Assembly (NCBI RefSeq): GCF_005871185.1
Contig: NZ_SWKN01000006.1
Location: 832,014 to 896,013 of the forward strand
Direction: 5' to 3'
DNA length: 64,000 bases
Source of the DNA: Limnobacter alexandrii
GTDB taxonomy: Bacteria > Pseudomonadota > Gammaproteobacteria > Burkholderiales > Burkholderiaceae_B
Positions within the stretch are counted from its first letter, which is position 1. Every line of letters starts with the position of its first letter. This document shows positions 372-11,887 of the stretch, in pieces. A model generated the notes under the pieces. The model was not told the DNA's origin. It worked only from the letters and a program-made list of their open reading frames with translations, and ran no database searches. A program made the position numbers and the translations under genes.

Positions 372-2816
372 TCAAAACCTCGAGTAAGGTGCAACGCCCT
401 CGGGCGGCACGCTCAGTTCGAAAAAGTCACCAAACGAATATTTCGCATACAGCTGCAATCTGTCGGGGTTGTAACCTTCGGATCGATCAATTTCAAAATA
501 ACCGCCAACCACAAAGTTTTTCAACACCTGCCGTTCGAGGGCAAGGCGCAAACCGGTACTGGTGCCACCACCGGGACCGCCTGTCTGCAAGGTGGGGTTG
601 CCTTGTGCTGCAGCGGCTGCCGCAAGTTCAGGATTCAGCGGATAAAGTTCAGTGTCGTCTTCCCGGGATTCGCTTGCGCCCACGCGGGCTTGGGCCTGCC
701 AGGACCAGCCGTTCATACTACCCGTCCAGGTGATCGGGAAAGTGAGTGAACCAAAGGCCTGAGGGCTGTAATAGCCACCTTGGCCGAAGGTGTAGAAGCG
801 CAGGTTTTTCTCGAATGACCACAAAAACAGCGACGCACCAATTTCTACTTCATGCCCTGGGCGCTGAAACACAGTTTTGCCCACAATGCCTTGCAAGTTG
901 TATTCGGTGTTGTCAGGTATGTTTTTGCCGGTAATCAGGTTGGCCCGCGCAATGCCTACAAAGTCGAGCGTGGGGTTGAATGCCTGGTAATACACGGCAC
1001 TCACGCCATTGCGCCGCGCACCGCCCCAAGTTTCTCCGGTTAAAGGGTCAATGGCCCCGGTGGTTGATAACACACTGCCGTTGACCATTCGCCGTGCCAC
1101 TTCCAGCCGTAGGGATCCTTCACCCAGGCTGGTGCGCCATTGCACGCCGCCCACCCAGTCGTTCACCGGATAATCGCCCACCGTAGTGCCGACATCAACA
1201 CGGTATTGCTCGGTTTGCACGCCAACGCCCACCACATGGCCTTTGTAGTTCTGATCCAGCCGGTTGCTGGCAATGGCTGGGTCGGTGGGCAGGGTGGTGC
1301 CCAGTTTTGCAAAGTTGCTGGCGGTGGCTGGGTTCACCCGGCCAGAATTTGCGTTCAAGGTGTCCGCACGTAAAAACAGGGTGCGTTCAAAATCGAGTGG
1401 CAAATCCAGTTGCAATGGAATTTCATCGCTGTCGATTCTGGATACACCTTCATCCCCGTCGATGATCGCGTTTTCATACGACATGCGCAAACGCACTTGC
1501 CGTTTGCGTTGAAGGTTTTGTTCAAGCGCCTGCACCTCGGGTTCGGCGCGCCACTTCGGCGTTGCGCTGATCGAGCTGGCCAGTGCATTAAACTCGCCGT
1601 TTCTTTCCTGTGCGCGCAACCCATCCATGTACTGGCCAAATTGCACTCGCTTTTCCAGTGCAGTCATGCCCTCGGTCCACTTGTCGCGTGGCACAGCATC
1701 AATCAAGGCAATCGCATCGTTGCCACGGTCCTGGCGTGCGGCCAGCAACGCTGCCGCAAATCGCATTTCCTGCCCTTTTTCAAGCGCAATGCCTTCATCC
1801 ATGACCCGCCGCGCGGCCTGTTTGCTGCCCGCATCGCCTTGGTCGTCCAGAAGAGTCGCCAGGTCGTAACGAAACCAAGGGTAGCTTGGGTTCAGGTCTA
1901 CTGCATTTTGTAGCAGTCGGGCCGCTTCGGTTTTGTTGCCTTGCTCAATCTGCTTCTGTGCAGAATCGGCCAGCTGTTGCCCCTGTTCAAAATCAGACAA
2001 CACTGGGGCGACTGGTTCCTCAGGCGCAGCTTGCGGAATTGTTGCGGTGTCAGGTTCAACGGGTTTGGCTTGAACCTCGGGCGCCGGCCTTGCGCGGCTA
2101 GCGTTGCCAGTGCTGCGATTGGGTTGTGCTGAGCCGGGCGCCGGTGTTTGTGCAAGCGTACTGGCACCAGTACCCCCCAATTCCGCAAGCAGTGTTTTGT
2201 ATCGTCGGTCGTCCGGAAACTGCTTGGCCAGTTCCGCCACTTGCCCGCGCGCGTAAGCCCGGCCTTCAGGTGTGCGGTTCATCAGGCGATAAATTTGAAC
2301 AGCGGCCTCACCCAATGGTGCCTGGGGCAGTAACTTTTGAAGTCGCTGCGGCAAGTTGACTGGAACTTGCTCACTGTCTGCCAAATAGCGCAACTCGGCA
2401 AACTGTTGCCGTTTCTCTGAAGCCAGGGATATGGCCTGTTGCAACTCGATTGAAAACGGGTTGTTGCCGTGCACCAGTTGCAGTTTACCCAGCCACACAT
2501 TGGCAGCTTGTACATCGCCGCGCGCCAGGTCAATCAAACCTTGCCAGCGAAGCGCAGAGGCATTGGTCGGCTCAATCAACAGTATTTTGTTGAACGACTG
2601 TGCTGCCAGGTCAAACCTGAAGCGTTCATACCAGTAAACGCCTTTGTCGCTCAATGCACGAATATTGGCTTGCTGGTTGTTTACATTGGCTTGCTGGTTG
2701 TTTACATTGGCAAGCGCCGTTTCAGGCATGACAAGTGGCAGCGCAACAAAACAGGCTTGAATTGCCAAAACGAGTGCGCAGGCTCGCAGGCCCGAAGTTT
2801 GTTTGCACTTAGCCAC
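372..2816 (-). CDS. bcsC: Cellulose synthase outer-membrane export protein BcsC (short form)
   Basis: BcsC forms the periplasmic TPR scaffold and outer-membrane barrel that passes cellulose out of the cell. The product (814 aa from the chosen start) has a signal peptide, TPR-like helical repeats in the first half (for example around NASALRWQGLIDLARG), a Pro/Ala-rich linker, and a C-terminal BcsC barrel domain rich in aromatic residues ending VAPYSRF. It is clearly shorter than the roughly 1150 aa of enterobacterial BcsC, mainly through fewer TPRs. The frame extends upstream to 2897. GTG at 2816 was chosen because AAAGAGG lies 9 bases upstream and the signal peptide begins just after it. This start overlaps the bcsZ stop by 8 bp. 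Confidence 0.88.
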   Translation of the reverse strand: MAKCKQTSGLRACALVLAIQACFVALPLVMPETALANVNNQQANVNNQQANIRALSDKGVYWYERFRFDLAAQSFNKILLIEPTNASALRWQGLIDLARGDVQAANVWLGKLQLVHGNNPFSIELQQAISLASEKRQQFAELRYLADSEQVPVNLPQRLQKLLPQAPLGEAAVQIYRLMNRTPEGRAYARGQVAELAKQFPDDRRYKTLLAELGGTGASTLAQTPAPGSAQPNRSTGNASRARPAPEVQAKPVEPDTATIPQAAPEEPVAPVLSDFEQGQQLADSAQKQIEQGNKTEAARLLQNAVDLNPSYPWFRYDLATLLDDQGDAGSKQAARRVMDEGIALEKGQEMRFAAALLAARQDRGNDAIALIDAVPRDKWTEGMTALEKRVQFGQYMDGLRAQERNGEFNALASSISATPKWRAEPEVQALEQNLQRKRQVRLRMSYENAIIDGDEGVSRIDSDEIPLQLDLPLDFERTLFLRADTLNANSGRVNPATASNFAKLGTTLPTDPAIASNRLDQNYKGHVVGVGVQTEQYRVDVGTTVGDYPVNDWVGGVQWRTSLGEGSLRLEVARRMVNGSVLSTTGAIDPLTGETWGGARRNGVSAVYYQAFNPTLDFVGIARANLITGKNIPDNTEYNLQGIVGKTVFQRPGHEVEIGASLFLWSFEKNLRFYTFGQGGYYSPQAFGSLTFPITWTGSMNGWSWQAQARVGASESREDDTELYPLNPELAAAAAAQGNPTLQTGGPGGGTSTGLRLALERQVLKNFVVGGYFEIDRSEGYNPDRLQLYAKYSFGDFFELSVPPEGVAPYSRF
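2664..2711 (-). repeat. 21-bp tandem duplication at the start of mature BcsC
   Basis: The unit ATTGGCTTGCTGGTTGTTTAC (as read on the plus strand) occurs at 2664-2684 and again at 2685-2705, followed by the first bases of a third copy. It encodes two copies of the heptapeptide NVNNQQA just after the predicted BcsC signal peptide. The reading frame is kept. Confidence 0.9.
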
Positions 2817-3960
2817 AGCTTTTTGCCTCTTTGCCACGGGGCAACAGTTCGCCCAGTGAATTGAATTCATACAGCCTGTCCATATAACCTTGAGCAAACA
2901 GGCTCAAGGCGCCGTTGTAATAACCGTATTTCAGCCAGGCTTCCTTGTTTGAATTTTTCAGGCTTTGGGTGTGAAATTTTTTCGCAAGTTCTGGCATGCC
3001 AAGGGCTTGAAGAAATGGCGCCATGGCCGCTTGAAAACCCGCAGGCCCACGTTCAGCGGAAAATTTTCCACCCAGGGGTTCAAACCACTCTGGCATGTTC
3101 TGGCGTTTCAGCAGCAGGGCTGCCAAGGGCGACAGTTGTTTCAACAAGGCTGCGGTGGTGGGGTCGTTTTCACTGCTCATGGCAATCCAAAGGTAGGTGC
3201 GTATCGCATCGTAATCGCCGCGCAGCTCGTCCTCAGGCAAACTCATTTCACCGTTGTTGTACAGCACCCAGTCGGGATAACTGCCTGTTTTGCCAGTTTC
3301 TAGCAACAGTTTCTGGCTGGCCAGGTAGGCCTGAGCCCAGCGCGTGTCGTCGGCCCAAGCGTTGGCAAACCGGGCCATCATGAAAGGCGGAACATAGCTT
3401 GGGTTAAGTTTTACGGCCCCATTGTCGAGTACAAAGCCAGTGTGCCCGGGCAATATGCTCAGGCCCAAACCGTCGACTTCAATACTCTCCTTGCTCAGGA
3501 TGAGTTCACCCAGCGCACGCGCTTTGTCGGCATAAGCCGGGGTGCACCAAATCCGGCTGGCCTCCAACAGGGCATAGGCAATCCACAGGTCGGCATCCGA
3601 TGCACTGTTGGCATCAATCACCCCCCATGAGTCGCCTTGTTTGCCCCAAATCCAGGCGGGCAGTTGCTTGCCCAGGTCGCCAGCACTCAGGTTGTTTTCT
3701 GTCCAGTTCAAGATCGCATCAAATGCCTTGCGGTCTTGCGCCACCAGTGCAAAAAACAAGCCATAGGACTGCCCCTCCGACACCGTGCGAAGATCCTCCT
3801 GGCTGCGATCTATGACACGCCCATCGTCACTGACAAAGGCGGTTTTAAAACCATCCCAAGCTGGCCAGGATTGGCTTGGTGCTGCGCTGCAGGCGGCAGT
3901 TGTCGCCAGCAACATTGCCCCAATACCCAATCGTTGCAACAAGTGACGCCACAATGCCAT
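2809..3960 (-). CDS. bcsZ: Periplasmic endo-1,4-beta-glucanase BcsZ (GH8)
   Basis: BcsZ is the glycoside hydrolase family 8 cellulase of cellulose operons and trims nascent cellulose in the periplasm. The product is 383 aa, close to the 368 aa of E. coli BcsZ. It has an N-terminal signal sequence (MALWRHLLQRLGIGAMLL...), the motif SEGQSYG carrying the general-acid Glu, and RGDYDAIRTYLW carrying the conserved Asp. The frame is open up to 4104, but ATG at 3960 fits better: it lies 2 bp after the bcsB stop, has AAAGG upstream, and is followed by the signal peptide. The LATTAAC stretch is a poor lipobox, so a soluble periplasmic enzyme is more likely than a lipoprotein. Confidence 0.93.
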   Translation of the reverse strand: MALWRHLLQRLGIGAMLLATTAACSAAPSQSWPAWDGFKTAFVSDDGRVIDRSQEDLRTVSEGQSYGLFFALVAQDRKAFDAILNWTENNLSAGDLGKQLPAWIWGKQGDSWGVIDANSASDADLWIAYALLEASRIWCTPAYADKARALGELILSKESIEVDGLGLSILPGHTGFVLDNGAVKLNPSYVPPFMMARFANAWADDTRWAQAYLASQKLLLETGKTGSYPDWVLYNNGEMSLPEDELRGDYDAIRTYLWIAMSSENDPTTAALLKQLSPLAALLLKRQNMPEWFEPLGGKFSAERGPAGFQAAMAPFLQALGMPELAKKFHTQSLKNSNKEAWLKYGYYNGALSLFAQGYMDRLYEFNSLGELLPRGKEAKSCG

Positions 3961-3962
3961 GT

Positions 3963-6170
3963 TTAACTGCCTTTCGTGCGGCGCGATGCCCGGCCAGACA
4001 ACCAGCCAAAGGCGAGAATGGCCAAAATTACCCCGGCAAGCGCACCGCCCACCGCGATCAAAGCCGGGTACTCGGAAAACGCAATTCGCAAACGCAACCA
4101 CCAAGGCAGTGCGCCGCTAATATAGGTTTCGCCCAGGCTATAACTTTGAATGTCATCACCACGAATCAGGCTGACGCTGCCCTTGATTTTTGCCACATCG
4201 CCGTAATCAGACAACGCAGCCACTGCGCGTTCAAAACTGTCCTGATCAGTGCCAGTAATCACCAGCCCAGCCTTTTGAGGTGCCAGGTGCGATTCAAAAC
4301 CCATGATTGCACCCAAAGAGCCTGCTGTTTGAATCAAGGCGCGGGCATTGTTGCTTGGTTGCAGTTCTGCGTCGCTTTGCCACAAACCCTTCAGCCATTG
4401 AATGGCGGGTGGTAAACCCATGCTGCGTTCGGTTTCGTTCAGCACCATGGGCAAATTCATATTGGCGGAATTCAGCCAGGCCAGCCGTTCACTGGTGCCC
4501 AGTGCCAGCCAGTTTTTACTGCCAATACCCTCGGGTTTGTCAGAAACAATCAAACTGGTGCGCGTGGCGGGCAGCCCGGTCCACTGACCAAACAGGCCCA
4601 TCACATTCAAGTAAGAACGAATTTCAAGTGGTGTCGGGTTGGCTGGCAGAACAATCGCAGTATCCGACAGGTCCGCCATGATGCTGAACGGGTAACCTCC
4701 GTTGGCAAATGCGGTCAAATTTGGCATGCGCGTGTAGTGGGGCAAATCGGAAAAATCCAGCGTTGATTCCGGGTCGATTGCCCCCCGCGCCACCTGCGCC
4801 ACCCGCGTGCATGCACCACCACCCTCGGCCATGAAACCAAAAGCAAAAGCGAGTTCATTGTTGCCACCCACGCGGAAAGCCGGAATTTGCAGCGCCTCTT
4901 CACTGGTCAGTTCAGCTTGACCCAACAGGTCGATATTGATTTTGTTTTGAACTTGCTCGGATCTTGGGGCCAGGCGGAACGACTGGATCAGCGCGTTGTT
5001 GATTTCAATGTTCAACAGCGAGTCGTTCCAGCGGGAAGGCGCCGTGTAGCGGTACTTCAAGTCCATTGGAATATTGCGGCCTGCCCAGCTGAACAAATCG
5101 GGGGGAAGGCGCAAATTGACGCTGGCGCGTGGCTTGTCAGAGCTGACTTCCAGCTGCCCCGGAAAATCAATCAGTTCTCCAAACCGCACTGGCCGGTCTG
5201 TGGGTACATAGCGTGGTGCATCGTAAGGTTTGCGTGGTGCGCCCAAGTCTACTTTTTTCACCAAGGCTTTTTGGCCACTCAGCACCTGGCCTTCAATCAC
5301 CAAACCGTACACGGCCTGTAGCAGCTCATCGTCGGTGCGCCCCATGACATACAGGTGCTTGATCCAGGGGTTTTCCTTGGCACTCACGATCATCAGCGAG
5401 GGACCTTCAATGTCGGCCTCGCTCATCCCTTCTGGCATTTTTTTGCCTTTGGTCAGGACAATCGTGTGGCGAGTTGGCGATGCCGTATCCAGTAATTCAA
5501 ACTCTGCTTGGCGGTAAAAGGCTTGTGCGCCCATCCATGAAGCCAGAATACCTGCTGCCTTCATGCTTGCTTCGGTTTGTTCCAGCGGCAAGACCAATGG
5601 CAGTTTCAGCTTCCGGTTGTCGCGTGGATCGAAAAAGGGTGCTGGCAACAACGCCAGGTCATTCACCAGGTTCAGTGGCGTTGAGCCAATAGTCAGCGTG
5701 CTTTCAGGGCGAATGTCAAATCTAAGGGTTGGGTTGCCCGGGTCTACGCATTCGCTGTCGTAAGTCCCGTCGTATTCAATTCGAACGGTCGCAAAATCAG
5801 AAAAAAGCAGCGGATCCAGCTCAATATTGACAGTGTGCGGCACGCCAGCCCGCGCTACGCTCAGCTGCGAAATACCGGAAAGCTGGTTGTTTACATACAC
5901 GCGTACAAAAGACTGGTCGTGACGCATGCCTTGGGGATACAACACCCGCAGGTTCAAATTTGCACGGGTGACCAGTTCATCCAGCCGAATACCCGAATTC
6001 AAATCCACAAAGCGGTTAATACCGCTCAAGCGGACCCCGTTGGGCTGCCCCATCTCGGTAAAAGTCAGGGTTCGGCTGCGTTCAATGGTCGTGATCTCGG
6101 GTTCTGCACTTTCTTGGGCATAACCCGTCAGGCAAAATAGTAAAAACACGAGGGAGAGTAAATGTCGCAT
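3963..6170 (-). CDS. bcsB: Cellulose synthase regulatory/periplasmic subunit BcsB
   Basis: BcsB is the membrane-anchored periplasmic partner of the BcsA synthase and guides the glucan through the periplasm. The 735-aa product has a signal peptide (MRHLLSLVFLLFCLTGYAQ), the repeated carbohydrate-binding and flavodoxin-like BcsB domains, and one C-terminal transmembrane helix (IAVGGALAGVILAILAFGWL) followed by a basic tail. Length and layout are typical. It is the first gene of this transcription unit within the window. BcsA, normally encoded immediately upstream, is absent there: the next gene upstream is divergent. Confidence 0.93.
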   Translation of the reverse strand: MRHLLSLVFLLFCLTGYAQESAEPEITTIERSRTLTFTEMGQPNGVRLSGINRFVDLNSGIRLDELVTRANLNLRVLYPQGMRHDQSFVRVYVNNQLSGISQLSVARAGVPHTVNIELDPLLFSDFATVRIEYDGTYDSECVDPGNPTLRFDIRPESTLTIGSTPLNLVNDLALLPAPFFDPRDNRKLKLPLVLPLEQTEASMKAAGILASWMGAQAFYRQAEFELLDTASPTRHTIVLTKGKKMPEGMSEADIEGPSLMIVSAKENPWIKHLYVMGRTDDELLQAVYGLVIEGQVLSGQKALVKKVDLGAPRKPYDAPRYVPTDRPVRFGELIDFPGQLEVSSDKPRASVNLRLPPDLFSWAGRNIPMDLKYRYTAPSRWNDSLLNIEINNALIQSFRLAPRSEQVQNKINIDLLGQAELTSEEALQIPAFRVGGNNELAFAFGFMAEGGGACTRVAQVARGAIDPESTLDFSDLPHYTRMPNLTAFANGGYPFSIMADLSDTAIVLPANPTPLEIRSYLNVMGLFGQWTGLPATRTSLIVSDKPEGIGSKNWLALGTSERLAWLNSANMNLPMVLNETERSMGLPPAIQWLKGLWQSDAELQPSNNARALIQTAGSLGAIMGFESHLAPQKAGLVITGTDQDSFERAVAALSDYGDVAKIKGSVSLIRGDDIQSYSLGETYISGALPWWLRLRIAFSEYPALIAVGGALAGVILAILAFGWLSGRASRRTKGS

Positions 6171-6425
6171 GGTGGTTTCGCTGGTCGACTTTGCAATAAC
6201 GGAATTTCCGGGGTTTTAATAAGACCCAGTTCAAATCAATGTAATCAAAAAAATAATTGCACAATAATTGTCAATTTTTTAAAAATTATGCAGCACAGGT
6301 CATCACGTTATCCTATTGTTTTTGTATATGCTCATTTTGTGGGGCTTGTTTTATAAAATTATTGCGCGAAGTGTCGAAAAGTGCACACTTTAAGAAAAGA
6401 GAATTAACAGTTTAGGGCGAACAAT
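6171..6425. promoter_or_regulatory. AT-rich divergent promoter region between bcsB and the STAS gene
   Basis: This 255-bp gap separates divergent bcsB and the partner-switching genes and is markedly more AT-rich than its surroundings. It holds several small symmetric elements: CGGAATTTCCG (6200-6210), ACAATAATTGT (6261-6271) and an inverted repeat AAGTGT-N10-ACACTT (6369-6390) about 35 bp before the STAS start. On the minus strand a perfect TTGACA lies near 6270, but no good -10 follows at 16-18 bp. These are candidate regulator sites only. No open reading frame of note is present. Confidence 0.5.
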
Positions 6426-6764
6426 ATGGTTTCGACAGAGGAAATGGGGGATGTATTTGTGCTGAGGGTGGATGCTGTTCGCTTGGACAGTGCGGTAGGC
6501 ACGATCATTCGTAATGCAGTGGTGTCCAAACTGGATTCCACCCAAAAGTTCGCTTTGGACATCGGCGCAGTCAAGTTAGTCGACTCTGGCGGTTTGGGTT
6601 CTTTGGTGGCATTGTTGAAAAATATCACCAATCACCACGGAAAGCTGGCCTTGGTCGGCATGAACAAGTCGGTTCGAATGATGTTTGAACTCTCCCGCAT
6701 GGACCGTCAATTTTCCCTGCTGGACGACATGCCCAAAGCCGTCGCTTTTCTGCAGCAGGTCTGA
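6426..6764 (+). CDS. STAS-domain anti-anti-sigma factor (HsbA/SypA-like)
   Basis: The 112-aa product is a single STAS domain. Such proteins are released or captured by a partner according to phosphorylation of one serine. The motif LVDSGGLGSL contains the conserved phosphorylatable Ser at the start of the second helix. AGGG precedes the ATG. The gene is followed after 6 bp by the large phosphatase/kinase gene, as in other partner-switching operons. Its target cannot be read from sequence. A sigma or anti-sigma factor, or a diguanylate cyclase as for Pseudomonas HsbA, are possibilities known for the family. Confidence 0.88.
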   Translation: MVSTEEMGDVFVLRVDAVRLDSAVGTIIRNAVVSKLDSTQKFALDIGAVKLVDSGGLGSLVALLKNITNHHGKLALVGMNKSVRMMFELSRMDRQFSLLDDMPKAVAFLQQV

Positions 6765-6770
6765 TTCACT

Positions 6771-9700
6771 GTGACCGAAAAAGACTCTGACAAACAGCTA
6801 CCCCGAATACTGGTTGTGGATGACTCGGTGGTTGAACGAAACCTGTTCGTTCACATGGTGGCCAAATGGGGTTATCCGGTTGAGTTTGCAAGCAGCGGCC
6901 AAGAGGCGATCAAGCTGATTGAGAGAGACCGTTTTCAGTTGGTGCTTGCCGACTGGCAAATGCCCGGTATGCAAGGCACTGAATTGTGTGTGGCCATACG
7001 CCAGCTTAACCTGGGGCAATATACCTACATCATCCTGATGTCGGCTCAAAACGATGAAGAGTTTTTGATCAAGGCCTTGGACGCAGGCGCTGATGACGTA
7101 CTCTCAAAACCTGTCGATGGCAATGAACTGGAGGCGCGCCTGCAGTCTGCAGTGCGTCGAATCGAGCTGCAAGCGCAGCTGGCGCGAAAAACCAATGAGC
7201 TGGCACACGCGCATGACGTAATCGCGCAAGACCTGCGCGCTGTATCTGGCCTTCAGCGCAGTTTCCTGCCCGAAGTGCAAAGCCCCTATCAGGGCCTGAA
7301 TTATCAGTGGTTGTCTGTGCCTTCCAAATACGTGTCGGGCGATCATCTTCAGGTGTTTGAGCTACAGCGTGACGTGTATGGTTTTTACCTGCTGGATGTG
7401 TCGGGTCACGGTATCCCCGCTGCGGTCAAGTCCATGCAACTGGTTCAAATGTTCGCCGACCGCTCCAACACCAGTATTGTTTTCGAGGGGCGCTTGGGTA
7501 GCGACGGGCAGCGAATTGTTTCCAAGCCCCGCGATGTGGTAGCCCGGCTGAATCGCCTGTTTCAGCAGACCGAGTCAGATCTGTCCTATTTCACGATGAT
7601 CTACGGCGTGTTCAACACAGCGACCCACCACGTGTCGCTCTGCCAGGCTGGTCATCCATCGCCACTGCTGGTCTCCAAAGGCACCAAGGCCGAGATGTTG
7701 GGCAGCGGCGGCTATCCGGTTGGCTTGTTTGATCTGGATGATTTTGAAGACATTGAATTGACTCTGAGTGATGAAGATGCCCTGATTCTTTATTCCGATG
7801 GCGTTACCGAGGTGCTGTCTGCCAGTTCAGAGGCATTCGGAGAGGAACGCCTGGTGGAGTTTGTCAATCAGCAGTGCAGCCAGGGGCGCTGGTCCGATCT
7901 GGCCGAGCGCATTCAAATGCGTGTTCAGCATTGGGGTGGCCCTGTGATTGCCCAAAAGGGTTTTGAGGACGACGTGTCCATTTTGATGTTGGCACCGCGC
8001 CCTGGGGTGCTCGATCAAGGCAATGTGGTGGACAGCGACAGGCAAGTGCCCGAACTCGTGTTTCGCCTTCAGGAAGTTCAAGCCAATCTGTTTACACCCT
8101 CCGTCGTAAAAGCCGGCAAGTCGATTGTCATCGTTGATGATTCCCGCAGCTTTTTGAGAATTTTTGAAGCCATGTTGCACAGCTGGGGTTACACCGTGCA
8201 CTCCGCCAAAAATGGCCATGAAGCCCTGACTCTGATCGAGAAACACCAACCCGACCTTGTACTGACCGATTGGGACATGCCCGGGATGAGCGGTATTGAA
8301 CTGTGTGAACAGGTTCGAGCCCAAAAACAGAATGCCTACACCTACATCATCATGATCACCGGCTATGCCAGTCGCGACGACCTGTTAAACAGCTTGCGCG
8401 TGGGTGCCGATGACTTCATGACCAAGCCAGTCAATCCGAGTGAGTTAAAGGTACGGCTGAAAACAGCGGAGCGGATTGCAGATTTGCACACCGGCCTTGA
8501 GCGCAGACACACCGAACTCAGCCAGTTGTACGAGGCGCTGCAGCGTGACATGCGGGAAGTGTCACGCATTCAGCGAGCCCTGTTGCCCAAAAGCAAGCAA
8601 GAACCCTGGCCGTTTGCCATTCAAACCATTTATCAACCGCAGGGTTATGTGTGCGGCAAACAAATGGGTTTGCTTGAAACCCAGGCCAATGAGCATGGGT
8701 TTTTCATGTTGAACATGGCCGGCCAGGACACCGCAACCGCTTTGCAAACCATGGCACTGGCGCGGTGGTTTTCCATGGCCCGTGCCACGCGTGTGCTGTT
8801 TCCTGTGGAGGAAAGCAGTTCGAAAATTCGACGTTACTTGGCCAGCCCCGAGCAGGTACTTGCCCAACTGTCCAGTATTTCCCCGTCACTGAAAGATGAG
8901 CCACCTCAATTTGACTTGTTGTATGGCCTGATCAATCTCGACCAGGGTACTTTGCTGGTGGCGGGCATCGGCGACTGGGCCATGGTCATGGCACAGCCGG
9001 GTTTGGCGCCTCTGTTTGTCGGTGCGCATGGGGAATCCGAACCCGCTGCTCCACGGCTGGGGCAGGTGATTTATCAAGGCGTGATTACCCCGGGCAGCCG
9101 GCTGTACTTTTACCCGCGAGAGTGTGGAGGTACTCTGGGTGTACCCAACCCTGAAACTTGGCAGCAGTCTGTGTTGCTTGAAGACACACAAGGCCATGTA
9201 TTGACCCGTGAGTTTTCCCGTCTGCTGGACTCCGGTCAACAAACATCGGGGATCGACGGAGACTTGTCCCTTCTCGGAATCCAGTGGCGTGAAAGTTTTG
9301 AAGTTGAGCGAATTGTCTTGCCCTCGGCCCGTGTGTCTGAATTGGTCGATGAGTTTGTGCAAACAGGTTTGAGCTTGCAAGACGAATTTTCAGCCTATGA
9401 CCATGCCCTAAAACTGGGCGAGTTTTTAAATTGTATTGCCTTCAGCGCGGTGGCTGATACTGTCAATATCGGGGTCTTAAGCCGCGCAGTGCGGGCTTTT
9501 GTCGAGGACTTGGCCTACACCGAAGAGGTGTGCTACAACACCGACCTGGTGGTGTCTGAAGCGCTTACCAACGTGATGCTGCACGGCTTCAGGGACAAAC
9601 GCCCCGAACCCGCTCGGCTGACAGTGCTGGCTTTTCAGCATGGTGTGGGGGTGTTGATTGAAGACCAAGGCAACTGCATACCTGCCCAGGTACTTGCCAG

Positions 9701-9854
9701 GATGCACCATGAACATTCATTTCAAGACGACCTGAGCTTGAGCGACTTGCCCGAAGGTGGCATGGGTCTGGCCTTCATGCGCATGGTGTCACAGCGCTTT
9801 GTGTACCAAGCCAAGCAGAATCAACAGGACAATCGCCTGCTTTTGCTGCTTTAA
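6771..9854 (+). CDS. REC-PP2C-REC-pseudoPP2C-HATPase partner-switching regulator
   Basis: This 1027-aa protein (GTG start) combines opposing activities on an STAS partner. Domains in order: receiver 1 (about 12-130; phospho-acceptor D61, K in LSKPV); coiled linker; SpoIIE-type PP2C phosphatase (about 165-410) with metal ligands in VSGDH, LLDVSGHG, YSDGVTE and EDDVSIL; receiver 2 (about 452-570; D500, K in MTKPV); coiled linker; a second PP2C-like region (about 600-840) whose motifs are lost (CGK, LNMAGQD, YFYPREC) except IDGDLSLL; and a C-terminal RsbW-type ATPase (about 870-1027) with SEALTNVMLHG, IEDQGN and EGGMGL. Known relatives are HsbR and SypE. Phosphatase and kinase in one chain imply that phosphorelay input decides the state of the upstream STAS protein. 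Confidence 0.9.
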   Translation: MTEKDSDKQLPRILVVDDSVVERNLFVHMVAKWGYPVEFASSGQEAIKLIERDRFQLVLADWQMPGMQGTELCVAIRQLNLGQYTYIILMSAQNDEEFLIKALDAGADDVLSKPVDGNELEARLQSAVRRIELQAQLARKTNELAHAHDVIAQDLRAVSGLQRSFLPEVQSPYQGLNYQWLSVPSKYVSGDHLQVFELQRDVYGFYLLDVSGHGIPAAVKSMQLVQMFADRSNTSIVFEGRLGSDGQRIVSKPRDVVARLNRLFQQTESDLSYFTMIYGVFNTATHHVSLCQAGHPSPLLVSKGTKAEMLGSGGYPVGLFDLDDFEDIELTLSDEDALILYSDGVTEVLSASSEAFGEERLVEFVNQQCSQGRWSDLAERIQMRVQHWGGPVIAQKGFEDDVSILMLAPRPGVLDQGNVVDSDRQVPELVFRLQEVQANLFTPSVVKAGKSIVIVDDSRSFLRIFEAMLHSWGYTVHSAKNGHEALTLIEKHQPDLVLTDWDMPGMSGIELCEQVRAQKQNAYTYIIMITGYASRDDLLNSLRVGADDFMTKPVNPSELKVRLKTAERIADLHTGLERRHTELSQLYEALQRDMREVSRIQRALLPKSKQEPWPFAIQTIYQPQGYVCGKQMGLLETQANEHGFFMLNMAGQDTATALQTMALARWFSMARATRVLFPVEESSSKIRRYLASPEQVLAQLSSISPSLKDEPPQFDLLYGLINLDQGTLLVAGIGDWAMVMAQPGLAPLFVGAHGESEPAAPRLGQVIYQGVITPGSRLYFYPRECGGTLGVPNPETWQQSVLLEDTQGHVLTREFSRLLDSGQQTSGIDGDLSLLGIQWRESFEVERIVLPSARVSELVDEFVQTGLSLQDEFSAYDHALKLGEFLNCIAFSAVADTVNIGVLSRAVRAFVEDLAYTEEVCYNTDLVVSEALTNVMLHGFRDKRPEPARLTVLAFQHGVGVLIEDQGNCIPAQVLARMHHEHSFQDDLSLSDLPEGGMGLAFMRMVSQRFVYQAKQNQQDNRLLLLL

Positions 9855-9864
9855 AAAAGCCGGT

Positions 9865-10737
9865 TTATGTTTTGTCTTCGCCTGTTGCAGGTGTTTCAGG
9901 CGCAACCCAGCCCGTGGGCTGCAATGCCGGATTGTTCGGCATTTCCTCGGCCATTTTGTCGATCAAACCCACAATGCGTTCATCAACAAATTTGCTGGCC
10001 GATTTTTGCAGGGCTCGGGATACTTCCGATTCAATGGCTGTCATGGCCAGGGGGCGAATTTTCCAGATCAGTTGTGCCAGCCTCGGTAGTTCTTCCTTGG
10101 GGGGCAGGTTGTCACCATACTGGTCGAGCTCTTTCACAAACAGTGAAACAGCTTGGTCGCAAAAGCTTTCAAGGTGACCGCGCAGCGACGCAATCAAATC
10201 CAGCAAGTCGAGCAAAGGCAGTCCTGCACTGGCCATCTCCGCGCCGGCGTGCAGAATTTTCGGGCTCGGCGCACGGTAACGCAAACCGTCAGGTTCCAGC
10301 AAACCCAGCTCGATAGTTTTGGCAAGCGCACCACGGCTCAGGCTGGTACCGAACATGGTGGCCAAATGCACCGGGTTGTAATTCTTGGGAATTTCATCTG
10401 TCCACGGGCTGGTGATCGCATGCGTTAAACCCAGCAACTGGCGAAGGTCGTAACCCTTGTCGATTGCATCCAGCATTTCCTGAATGTTGCTCAAGGTGTA
10501 ACCGCGACCCAGCATTTGTCCAATAAGCTTGAGCCGTGACAAATGGTCTTCGCTGTAGAAACCCACACGCCCACGTTTCTCGGGCGGGGCCAGCAAGCCC
10601 CTGTCCTGATAAGCACGCACATTGCGCACGGTGGTGTTGGCAGTGCGCGCCAGTTCGTCAATGGTGAACTCGCGACCCTGTCCACTGCTGGAAGTGTCTT
10701 TGTTTGCCGACGATTTTTTGAAGCGGAATGAAACCAT
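9865..10737 (-). CDS. MerR-family transcriptional regulator
   Basis: The 290-aa product has an N-terminal MerR winged-helix domain: FTIDELARTANTTVRNVRAY, then the wing region and a dimerisation helix around QEMLDAI. The long C-terminal region (about 100-290) is mostly helical and matches no effector domain I recognise, so the ligand is unknown. The gene ends 10 bp from the divergently read switch gene's stop and is divergent from pldA, which it may regulate. It lacks an obvious metal-binding cysteine cluster, which argues against a metal-responsive MerR. Confidence 0.8.
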   Translation of the reverse strand: MVSFRFKKSSANKDTSSSGQGREFTIDELARTANTTVRNVRAYQDRGLLAPPEKRGRVGFYSEDHLSRLKLIGQMLGRGYTLSNIQEMLDAIDKGYDLRQLLGLTHAITSPWTDEIPKNYNPVHLATMFGTSLSRGALAKTIELGLLEPDGLRYRAPSPKILHAGAEMASAGLPLLDLLDLIASLRGHLESFCDQAVSLFVKELDQYGDNLPPKEELPRLAQLIWKIRPLAMTAIESEVSRALQKSASKFVDERIVGLIDKMAEEMPNNPALQPTGWVAPETPATGEDKT

Positions 10738-10798
10738 TTAGGAATTGTAACCAAATGTGAGAGTATCTAGCCAACCAAGCTCGATGCAGTGCGCGATT

Positions 10799-11887
10799 AT
10801 GAACAAACCCTTACTCCTTGTGCTGGGCCTTCTGAGCCTGCACGGCTGGGCCAAGGCCCAAGATATTCAAAACAAAACGCTGGATGAAGAAGCACTCCGG
10901 GCCTGCCTGTTTCTCGAAGACGATCAAATTCGCCTTCGTTGCTTTGATGATGCCACAGGCAGAAGCCTGGTGGTCAAAGATGGTTCAGCGCCTGAAGCAG
11001 CTGCAGCCATTGATGGCGGTTTGTTGTTGTACAAACGCAGCGAAGACACAACACTGAGCTGGCTGGATCGTCGCTGGGAGCTTGCACCTTCAGCCAAACG
11101 GGGCACCTTTTCCATTCGTCCCTATCAGCCCGTGTATTTGTTGCCGGTGTATCACAACAAATCGCCAAACCTTCGCCCCACCAGTCCGAACCCGGCCAAC
11201 ACCGTGCAGCCCGGCGATGAACCCGAGAACCTGGACCGCAATGAGTTGAAATTTCAGTTGAGCCTGAAAACCAAGGTGATGGAAAACATGTTTGGTGACA
11301 ATGGCGATTTGTGGTTTGCCTACACGCAATCAAGTCGATGGCAGGTCATGAACCAGGATATTTCCCGTCCGTTTCGCGAAACCAATTACGAGCCTGAGCT
11401 GATTTTTACCTGGCGTTCCAGCTGGAGCGAGTTCAGGGAAGCCACCGGCTGGGAGCCGCGCCTGCTGGGTTTGAGCTTGAACCACCAGTCCAACGGGCGA
11501 GCCTTGCCCTTGTCCCGATCCTGGAACCGCTTGATCGGCATGGTTGGGTTTGAGCGAGAAAACACCATGGTTCAATTCAGGCCGTGGTTGCGCATTGCCG
11601 AAGATGCCGCCGAAGACGACAACCCCGACATCAGCGACTTCATGGGCCGAGGTGACATGTTGCTGGTTCACAAACACAACGGCCATGAGTATTCTCTGCT
11701 GACTCGCCACAACTTTCGCGGTGGCGATGAATCCCGGGGCGCAGTTCAATTCGATTGGGCCTTCCCGCTGACCAGTAACTTGCGCGGGCACTTGCAATAC
11801 TTCACTGGCTTTGGCGAAAGCTTGATTGACTACAATTACAAGTCTGATTATTTGGGTGTCGGTTTGTCCTTGGTGGGGTGGTATTGA
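10799..11887 (+). CDS. pldA: Outer-membrane phospholipase A (OMPLA)
   Basis: PldA is a calcium-dependent outer-membrane barrel enzyme that hydrolyses phospholipids misplaced in the outer leaflet. The product (362 aa) has a signal peptide and the family signature: HQSNGR with H229 and S231, and RSWNR supplying N243. The His-Asn spacing of 14 equals that of E. coli OMPLA. The C-terminus ends VGLSLVGWY, a typical barrel end with aromatic residue. The frame is open from 10757. ATG at 10799 is preferred because the signal peptide follows directly, although no clear Shine-Dalgarno is seen. The N-terminal 100 residues before the barrel are longer than in enterobacteria. Confidence 0.9.
   Translation: MNKPLLLVLGLLSLHGWAKAQDIQNKTLDEEALRACLFLEDDQIRLRCFDDATGRSLVVKDGSAPEAAAAIDGGLLLYKRSEDTTLSWLDRRWELAPSAKRGTFSIRPYQPVYLLPVYHNKSPNLRPTSPNPANTVQPGDEPENLDRNELKFQLSLKTKVMENMFGDNGDLWFAYTQSSRWQVMNQDISRPFRETNYEPELIFTWRSSWSEFREATGWEPRLLGLSLNHQSNGRALPLSRSWNRLIGMVGFERENTMVQFRPWLRIAEDAAEDDNPDISDFMGRGDMLLVHKHNGHEYSLLTRHNFRGGDESRGAVQFDWAFPLTSNLRGHLQYFTGFGESLIDYNYKSDYLGVGLSLVGWY

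Follow-up and report, generated by a model that had tools for sequence, protein, structure and literature searches.

The analysed stretch of DNA (the window, 64,000 nucleotides) came from Limnobacter alexandrii, whose genus is one of water bacteria, and held two adjoining genes on the forward strand. The first (6426..6764) encoded a single-domain, 112-aa STAS-domain switch protein (Pfam STAS 1.7e-11, STAS_2 9.1e-9). The second (6771..9854), beginning with a GTG start after a 6-bp gap, encoded a 1027-aa regulator with five domains in the order REC1-PP2C1-REC2-pseudoPP2C2-HATPase. Orthologues of the long protein were found in 16/16 genomes of the genus (E <= 1e-30); in one genome the gene was split across two contigs, and in one incomplete genome a TGA lay inside it. 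The STAS gene adjoined the long gene in all 11 family loci given to phmmer, and KLVDSGGLG was present in the STAS protein of each. In the window, S54 (codon 6585-6587) lay within KLVDSGGLGSL and, by analogy, would be the site of phosphorylation. A single-domain STAS partner, here encoded next door and carrying a serine in a DSG motif, is as expected for a switch of the HsbR/CrsR type. Of the identified ORFs, none immediately flanking the STAS gene encoded a diguanylate cyclase or a sigma factor.

Upstream, on the reverse strand, lay a divergent cellulose cluster consisting of bcsB, its first gene (3963..6170; Pfam BcsB 2.2e-167), bcsZ for the periplasmic endoglucanase (2809..4104; NCBIfam BcsZ 417 bits, cut-off 299) and bcsC (372..2897; Pfam BCSC_C 3.2e-78). 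The true start of bcsZ may fall inside its ORF. Past the window edge (locus L068), the same strand continued with a 468-aa ORF, bcsQ, bcsA with a PilZ domain and bcsG. Fifteen loci were considered for this side of the pair; L020, which with L024 makes up parts of one genome, lacked it because its contig begins inside the gene. In all 14 loci that cover that side, the STAS/long-gene pair was divergent from and adjoined bcsB, the conserved place beside bcs genes expected of a cellulose synthase operon regulator. This fixed linkage to the cellulose genes is new relative to the earlier note on this DNA. The 255 bp that separate bcsB from the STAS gene (6171..6425), a control region aligned over eight loci, held a conserved block (6306-6334) and a dyad, AAGTGT-N10-ACACTT (6369-6390), and may merely co-regulate transcription. 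A regulon marked by the dyad was rejected, as the genome held 11 sites at <=1 mismatch vs 10 for a reversed control pattern, indicating no enrichment; at <=2 mismatches the window held 2 sites vs 2.27 expected. A sigma-70 promoter scan of 6100-10800 returned 2 promoters vs 3.0 expected and was uninformative. Gene neighbourhood by itself is no proof of the output, and cellulose is put forward here as the proposed output of the switch.

Pfam assigned the 1027-aa protein two Response_reg stretches (6.4e-59), one SpoIIE stretch (residues 201-407, 3.1e-42) and one HATPase_c_2 stretch (residues 896-1016, 4.7e-13). REC1 (about residues 12-125; 6804..7145) carried D17, D18, D61, S91 and K113, and this phosphorylation set was complete in 12/15 family members; since the other three lack part of it, a scheme with two phosphorylated inputs may not hold for every member. 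PP2C1 (Pfam residues 201-407, or about 173-410 with the first strands included; 7371..7991) retained its metal-ligand aspartates (D191, D209, D343, D400), and all 15 family members in the comparison shared its catalytic residues; it is probably a working phosphatase. REC2 (residues 452-563; 8124..8459), the best Response_reg stretch, carried D456, D457, D500, T530 and K552, a set intact in 15/15 members. PP2C2 (about residues 613-842; 8607..9296) was recognised by profiles, predicted fold and ligand alignment as a predicted pseudo-phosphatase. The C-terminal domain (residues 896-1016; 9456..9818) was a serine kinase/anti-sigma-like HATPase_c_2 domain with an N-box (E930-N934), D965xG967 and G996-G999; these motifs were retained in 15/15 members, one having ESGMGL instead of EGGMGL. 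In the predicted secondary structure of the full-length model, a long helix joined REC1 to PP2C1 (residues 117-163; 7119..7259), and a second, mirroring the first, joined REC2 to the pseudo-PP2C (residues 556-604; 8436..8582); with a pTM of 0.43, the full-length model was uninformative on inter-domain contacts. The five-domain reading of the earlier note (REC, PP2C, REC, PP2C-like, HATPase) was thus borne out by Pfam, profiles and predicted fold, and the similar linker motifs that it described before each PP2C were located at residues 155-167 and 594-606.

The kinship of the second phosphatase-like module required several lines of evidence, as Pfam returned no match on residues 600-840. BLASTP of residues 1-440 against 441-880 gave E 9e-53 with 34% identity over 271 aa, spanning REC, the linker and the first part of PP2C; residues 130-410 against 570-850 gave E 5e-18 over 152 aa; and a copy-1 profile matched the copy-2 region in 19/19 proteins (E 8e-16 to 1e-40, Z = 1000), all of these BLAST and hmmsearch E-values depending on the chosen database sizes. 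Profile-profile comparison of the two copies gave probabilities of 99.2-99.95, and the last third could be aligned only with paralogues in the profiles. The predicted structure of residues 579-880 (mean pLDDT 60.5, pTM 0.65; first 33 residues with pLDDT < 50) was used for fold only. Foldseek returned 521 PDB matches for it, 110 of them at E <= 0.001 (best 3.5e-8), and the best 50 of the 521 were mostly labelled PP2C/serine phosphatase, RsbX, SpoIIE or RssB. Matches to TAB1, SidD and a Legionella effector were also returned, which we take to be PP2C-like. VIA-align of the copy-2 model against SpoIIE reached a Z of 16.1. Residues 613-842 therefore have a SpoIIE/PP2C fold with PP2C sequence kinship, and profiles, fold and Pfam matches in paralogues together ruled out an unrelated domain at residues 600-840, where the earlier note had placed a PP2C-like module.

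The metal ligands of SpoIIE are given in part of PMC3517971 as Asp610, 628, 746 and 795. At these four positions, copy 2 of the window protein had K630, N648, R783 and G830, so that none of the four was aspartate. Outside REC-PP2C proteins held aspartate in 61/61, 61/61, 60/61 and 38/39 rows, the fourth position being gapped in 22 of the 61. In an alignment of both copies from 12 of the 19 Limnobacter proteins, the full set was found in none of the 12 copy-2 rows, and the replacing residues differed among orthologues. As judged from the residues, an active copy 2 in the window protein is ruled out, and the second phosphatase is predicted to be dead, as had been proposed.

E. coli RssB is likewise built from a receiver, a helical linker and a PP2C-fold domain that has no catalytic activity and is used for protein binding (PMC7226468, PMC12143880, each in part). 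REC2 and the pseudo-PP2C could then form an RssB-like adaptor, whose phosphorylated form binds a non-STAS protein such as a sigma factor or anti-sigma, so that one chain would serve both as partner switch and as adaptor. Structure comparison of the pseudo-PP2C returned RssB chains among its matches, 3eq2 (P. aeruginosa RssB) was the best solved sequence relative, and the P. aeruginosa-type RssB model was the best NCBIfam match of the 1027-aa protein (5.7e-63). The best stretch of that match, however, was residues 12-367 in the first half, not copy 2, and the curated cut-offs of the RssB models were not reached (NF045505 213.3 of 700 bits; NF007969 164.8 of 329). The kinase domain of CrsR holds RpoS, according to part of PMC6482189, but RpoS was rejected as a target here, as all matches in the genome fell under the curated cut-off (best 277.6 of 378.7 bits). 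Copy 2 also grouped with its own family's copy 1, in a tree that did not include E. coli RssB itself; catalysis may have been lost independently in the two. E. coli RssB is moreover a stand-alone adaptor for sigma-S proteolysis, unfused to an active phosphatase and kinase. We consider an adaptor role unlikely, at perhaps the level of one chance among several.

Less probable still is that the pseudo-PP2C serves as a holding site, binding phosphorylated STAS without hydrolysis, either as a buffer or to offer it to the kinase or PP2C1. The kept fold and constrained sequence would suit such a site, and bacterial PPM phosphatases such as SpoIIE act on STAS proteins (PMC11418112, in part), but the metal cluster of an active PP2C is gone in the window protein.

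Selection acted on the whole protein, with dN/dS far below 1 in all five domains and roughly 0.05-0.09 in the pseudo-PP2C, ratios that are rough because most pairs had a dS near or >1 and some were saturated. REC2 was the best-conserved domain, with the highest mean identity and the strongest purifying selection, and across 12 orthologues residues 594-743 included numerous invariant positions. The dead copy has thus been retained under selection, and the low dN/dS, rough as it is, speaks against a decaying relic. A second half without a regulatory role, left as a structural spacer or a relic of dimerisation, would fit the eroded ligand positions that vary among orthologues and a pseudo-PP2C less constrained than PP2C1, but the selection on that domain, its invariant positions and the intact phosphorylation set of REC2 make this distinctly improbable.

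The origin of the two halves was examined in a tree of 67 of 85 rows. The REC-PP2C set had 61 outside rows spanning the module, with partial ones (e.g., L071, L103, L107) excluded, and 18 of the 61 were dropped from the tree, all from L117-L143. All 24 Limnobacter copies fell on one side of a branch with 98/97 support vs 43 outside rows. The grouping of both copies supported internal duplication followed by erosion of the second, and with the ligand loss it upheld, on sequence grounds, the earlier proposal of duplication with catalysis lost in copy two. That two REC-PP2C genes of unrelated origin were fused, as the weak copy-1 group (77/19) and long copy-2 branches might hint, is very improbable given that 98/97 branch and the colinearity of the halves across REC, linker and the first part of PP2C.

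Some Limnobacter genomes carried diverged paralogues that had lost other modules. Pfam recognised two SpoIIE stretches in 4/4 of them, unlike in the window protein. In two paralogues copy 2 retained 3/4 metal ligands, and in one of the two copy 1 was eroded as well. For par4 the count is three and not four, as its last retained Asp aligns as the second of a DD pair. A STAS gene was not detectable within 3.6-6 kb on either side of the paralogues. These proteins, which were absent from the earlier note and, like the cellulose linkage, alter its reading, show intermediate and different losses.

Among the genomes sampled, only those of Limnobacter had the full layout. Across 252 genomes from the family's other genera no protein matched at E <= 1e-30, and no full-length match was found at E <= 1e-40 in overlapping samples of the order, class and phylum (399, 370 and 397 genomes). 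In these searches the two or three best first-look candidates were scored per genome, which may have passed over a weaker second protein, and matches above E 1e-30 or 1e-40 were uncounted. Outside the genus, the REC-PP2C part was matched best by REC-PP2C proteins of ~400-480 aa. In L080, L081 and L086, the gene neighbours encoded REC-PP2C, then HATPase, then STAS (HATPase weak in L086, E 8e-4). L077, from the same taxonomic order as Limnobacter, encoded a single-copy REC-PP2C-HATPase relative in which each of the three domains passed a Pfam cut-off; L100 was similar with its HATPase just under the cut-off; both had a weak STAS match directly upstream (E 1e-4 to 3e-4). The component parts are familiar, and the doubled arrangement is confined to Limnobacter in our samples. 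A literature search by title and abstract start likewise found no description of the layout among the matches listed, in agreement with the view that a second receiver and a second phosphatase-like module are unusual.

The closest known systems are HsbR-HsbA of Pseudomonas aeruginosa and CrsR-CrsA of Shewanella oneidensis, in which REC, PP2C and HATPase follow in the same order in one chain, with an anti-sigma-antagonist partner and control of lifestyle (PMC6482189, in part). The Limnobacter protein has this order, with a SpoIIE-type PP2C and a C-terminal HATPase, plus an extra REC-PP2C unit. HsbR and CrsR have one REC-PP2C, with neither a second receiver nor a pseudo-PP2C; the second REC and second PP2C-fold domain thus mark the Limnobacter protein as a variant working like HsbR, not HsbR itself. 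No cellulose operon link for HsbR/CrsR was found in the available part of PMC6482189. In the RbaY-RbaV-RbaW pathway of Rhodobacter capsulatus, grouped here with the RsbY-type REC-PP2C phosphatases, a REC-PP2C phosphatase, STAS and HATPase act together (PMC3999984, in part), but they are three separate proteins, whereas in Limnobacter the phosphatase is duplicated and fused to the kinase. SypE of Vibrio fischeri, acting on the biofilm-promoting STAS protein SypA, combines kinase, REC and PP2C in one chain (PMC12826045, in part); this order and that of HsbR agree with those first claimed. SypE has one receiver and one PP2C, and its kinase comes first. The SiaABCD system of P. aeruginosa is made of separate proteins with a different, receiver-free sensor, and SiaD is a diguanylate cyclase. 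SiaC, an anti-sigma-antagonist-like protein that modulates SiaD and biofilm, has its phosphorylation determined there by a PP2C and a kinase (PMC7647112, in part). Literature on cellulose with partner switching, c-di-GMP and response regulators yielded only a SiaABC paper among its matches.

Partner switching is well grounded in the anatomy of the gene pair. By this reading, S54 of the adjacent STAS protein would be phosphorylated by the HATPase domain and dephosphorylated again by PP2C1. REC1 would gate the phosphatase through its helical linker, as may be compared with RsbU and P. aeruginosa RssB, which are linker-gated PP2C dimers (PMC12143880, in part). REC2 would gate the kinase through the like linker and the dead PP2C, which may be an allosteric relay or docking surface and no longer an enzyme. 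With one receiver gating each arm, two phosphorelay inputs would set one STAS phosphorylation level. The making of cellulose would in turn be under the control of the STAS protein. The likeliest route would run via a c-di-GMP enzyme to the PilZ-bearing BcsA, by analogy with HsbA, whose target is the diguanylate cyclase HsbD (PMC6482189, in part). We hold with roughly even confidence that the pair is an HsbR/CrsR-like partner switch with one receiver per arm, controlling cellulose output, whose REC-PP2C half was tandem-duplicated in the Limnobacter lineage.

More tentatively, the dead receiver-phosphatase duplicate could possibly have become a receiver-driven kinase subunit in cis, with the two phosphorelay inputs read oppositely and the output dedicated to cellulose; the paralogues would then be natural experiments run in parallel, with other modules lost. 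The findings also suggest a cellulose-dedicated partner switch. The family shows a phosphatase turning into a pseudo-phosphatase, a change like that proposed for E. coli RssB, and sister proteins preserve intermediates. Two questions become testable: whether a dead PP2C can convey the signal of a receiver to the kinase next to it, and in what way one STAS protein integrates two inputs.

The STAS protein (112 aa, 6426-6764) and the long protein (1027 aa, 6771-9854, GTG start codon) are encoded by adjoining genes with a 6-bp gap in a genome of 3.49 Mb, and the long gene product shared 89% protein identity with Limnobacter sp. P1, MED105, and 130. Pfam matched two receivers, one SpoIIE-type PP2C (201-407), and HATPase_c_2 (896-1016) on the long protein, leaving residues 600-840 without any Pfam match; the domain order and coordinates of the earlier note were therefore correct, and this unmatched stretch was indeed the part that called for a test. 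Apart from the long gene, the SpoIIE model hit this genome at a single weak site (36.6 bits) in a 580-aa frame, and therefore no paralogue was seen there.

Residues 600-840 form a PP2C domain, as the earlier note had suspected. The first half of the protein aligned with the second over 271 aa (34% identity, E 9e-53), and the PP2C parts of the two copies alone aligned over 152 aa (E 5e-18). A copy-1 profile built from orthologues matched the copy-2 region in 19/19 proteins, with profile-profile probabilities of 99.2 to 99.95 between the copies, the alignment spanning to the end of the PP2C domain only when paralogues were included in the profiles. The AlphaFold2 model of copy 2, from an 11-row alignment, was modest (pLDDT 60.5, pTM 0.65). 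The 50 Foldseek matches listed for it were labeled mostly as PP2C/serine phosphatase, RsbX, SpoIIE, or RssB; also among the matches listed were TAB1, SidD, and a Legionella effector, which we take to be PP2C-like. VIA-align, used as a re-check of Foldseek's own match list, superposed copy 2 on SpoIIE (Z 16.1, rmsd 3.4, 201 residues) and on P. aeruginosa RssB (Z 13.3, rmsd 4.5, 209 residues). In the four diverged paralogues, Pfam itself matched SpoIIE in two stretches.

According to PMC3517971, the metal ligands of SpoIIE are Asp628, Asp746, and Asp795, and Asp610 is a conserved residue that serves a second ion. These positions were read from an alignment of 85 REC-PP2C segments, in which the 61 rows from outside Limnobacter carried Asp in 61/61, 61/61, 60/61, and 38/39 cases (the fourth was gapped in 22 rows). 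All four were present in 11 of the 12 copy-1 rows, and the full set in 0 of the 12 copy-2 rows. Copy 2 of the window protein has K630, N648, R783, and G830 there (0/4 Asp), bearing out the prediction that the second phosphatase is probably dead. Asp was retained at two of the four positions in copy 2 of one compared locus (L021) and at three in paralogues L065 and L066; the Asp following the fourth ligand (D831 in the window protein) was the only one kept in 12/12 copy-2 rows.

The pseudo-PP2C is probably not a relic. Its dN/dS was 0.048-0.091 (six ortholog pairs), beside 0.026-0.038 for PP2C1 and 0.004-0.023 for REC2 (five pairs each) and 0.016-0.057 for REC1, all values being rough because dS was high. 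Mean identity was higher in REC2 (0.88) than in any other domain, and the phosphorylation set of REC2 (D456, D457, D500, T530, K552) was intact in 15/15 family members; that of REC1 showed departures in 3/15.

A maximum-likelihood tree compared 43 outside rows with 24 REC-PP2C copies from Limnobacter; a single branch (98/97) set off all of the latter, with copy 2 forming one group (94/75) and copy 1 another, weakly supported one (77/19). Since both copies lie on one side of that branch, tandem duplication in the Limnobacter lineage, predating the paralogue split, is the simplest reading, and the proposed internal duplication is supported. The top-scoring outside relatives were REC-PP2C proteins of roughly 400-480 aa, and HATPase and STAS genes adjoin several of their genes (L080, L081, L086). 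L077 encodes a single-chain REC-PP2C-HATPase whose domains all pass the Pfam cut-offs, and a weak STAS match lies immediately upstream of it; L100 is similar, with its HATPase just below the cut-off. The Limnobacter gene resembles such a set after fusion and doubling.

Orthologues occurred in 16/16 genus genomes, split between contigs in one and with an internal TGA in one incomplete genome. Within the same family outside the genus, 0/252 genomes matched at E <= 1e-30. Overlapping order, class, and phylum samples (399, 370, and 397 genomes; E <= 1e-40) yielded 10, 25, and 69 matching genomes, in which full-length matches came from Limnobacter only (2, 1, and 2 genomes); all others stopped at or before position 443 of the 1031-position profile, within open frames of <= 763 aa. 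In a peptide-pattern scan of genome contigs, both halves were matched by 14 loci, two of them pieces of one genome, that carry Limnobacter, Burkholderiales, or Gammaproteobacteria in their titles; the remaining 15 loci matched only up to residue 586. In these samples the layout is as unusual as had been claimed, and the titles and abstract starts searched in the accessible literature contained no description of it.

Two of the four paralogues were in G001, one in G003, and one in G013, all genus genomes; bcsB, bcsZ, bcsC, and a detectable STAS gene were all absent within 12-13 kb around them. Those at L063:4700-7843 (minus strand, 1047 aa) and L064:5383-8436 (plus strand, 1017 aa) have a degenerate REC2 and a predicted dead PP2C2, and may serve a pilus. 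By eye, ORFs upstream of these two start like type IV prepilins (TLIE motif). At L065:3918-6932 (minus strand), two metal ligands have been lost from copy 1 and three remain in copy 2, and the protein's HATPase motifs are degraded. The paralogue at L066:5953-8499 (plus strand, 848 aa) lacks the HATPase and the start of REC1; nearby ORFs start, by eye, like flagellin and flagellar rod proteins.

The STAS and long genes diverge from bcsB, followed on the opposite strand by bcsZ, bcsC, a 468-aa ORF (L068:10979-12385, minus strand) without a match in Pfam (E <= 0.01) or NCBIfam (E <= 1e-10), bcsQ, bcsA (with a PilZ domain), and bcsG. Divergent bcsB was found in 14/14 loci covering that side, down to 38% long-protein identity. 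Exopolysaccharide production has been described for a Limnobacter strain that carries a bcsA/B/C operon (PMC12628687). The bcsB-STAS intergenic region holds two features well kept in eight aligned loci. The block at 6306-6334 has a 24-bp core, ATCCTATTGTTTTTGTATATGCTC, unchanged in 18/165 loci; these 18 are copies of the region from nearer Limnobacter genomes, some represented twice. Small changes occurred in L013, L016, and L017. The perfect dyad AAGTGT-N10-ACACTT (6369-6390) stops 35 bp short of the start of the STAS gene. The genome has two further perfect sites, of which one (G000:C1:39474-39495) is a longer palindrome, and shows no enrichment of the pattern over the control. On the other side, a MerR-type regulator gene (9865-10737, minus strand) and then a phospholipase A1 gene follow the long gene. 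The regulator was present in 12/15 family loci (77-98% protein identity) and absent at L067, where the flank was covered; L023 and L024 lack the flank.

The arrangement of domains and genes was observed directly; from it we infer enzyme activities, a division of labor, and an output by analogy. By the HsbR-HsbA and CrsR-CrsA model, as given in PMC6482189, the HATPase would phosphorylate STAS and PP2C1 would remove the phosphate, a basic partner switch that we consider very probable. The proposed mode resembles HsbR/CrsR, whereas their layout has one receiver and one PP2C, and the long protein is therefore classed as a variant; curated cut-offs for an RssB assignment were not reached. The full-length model (pLDDT 68.6, but pTM 0.43) places a helix of nearly 50 residues after each receiver (117-163, 556-604). 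According to PMC12143880 and PMC7226468, like linkers gate RsbU PP2C dimers and are also present in P. aeruginosa RssB, and E. coli RssB is an example of a receiver operating together with a dead PP2C. On these grounds we propose that REC1 would govern the phosphatase arm, and REC2 with the pseudo-PP2C the kinase arm. Two FlgM-type matches in the genome (G000:C12:22397-22528 and G000:C9:223392-223493) are possible anti-sigma targets of the STAS protein. The whole chain, with its receiver arms and cellulose output, we regard as evenly poised between right and wrong. Under it, the two arms would give Limnobacter a two-input setting of STAS, which would in turn act on cellulose, perhaps via c-di-GMP as in HsbA-HsbD.
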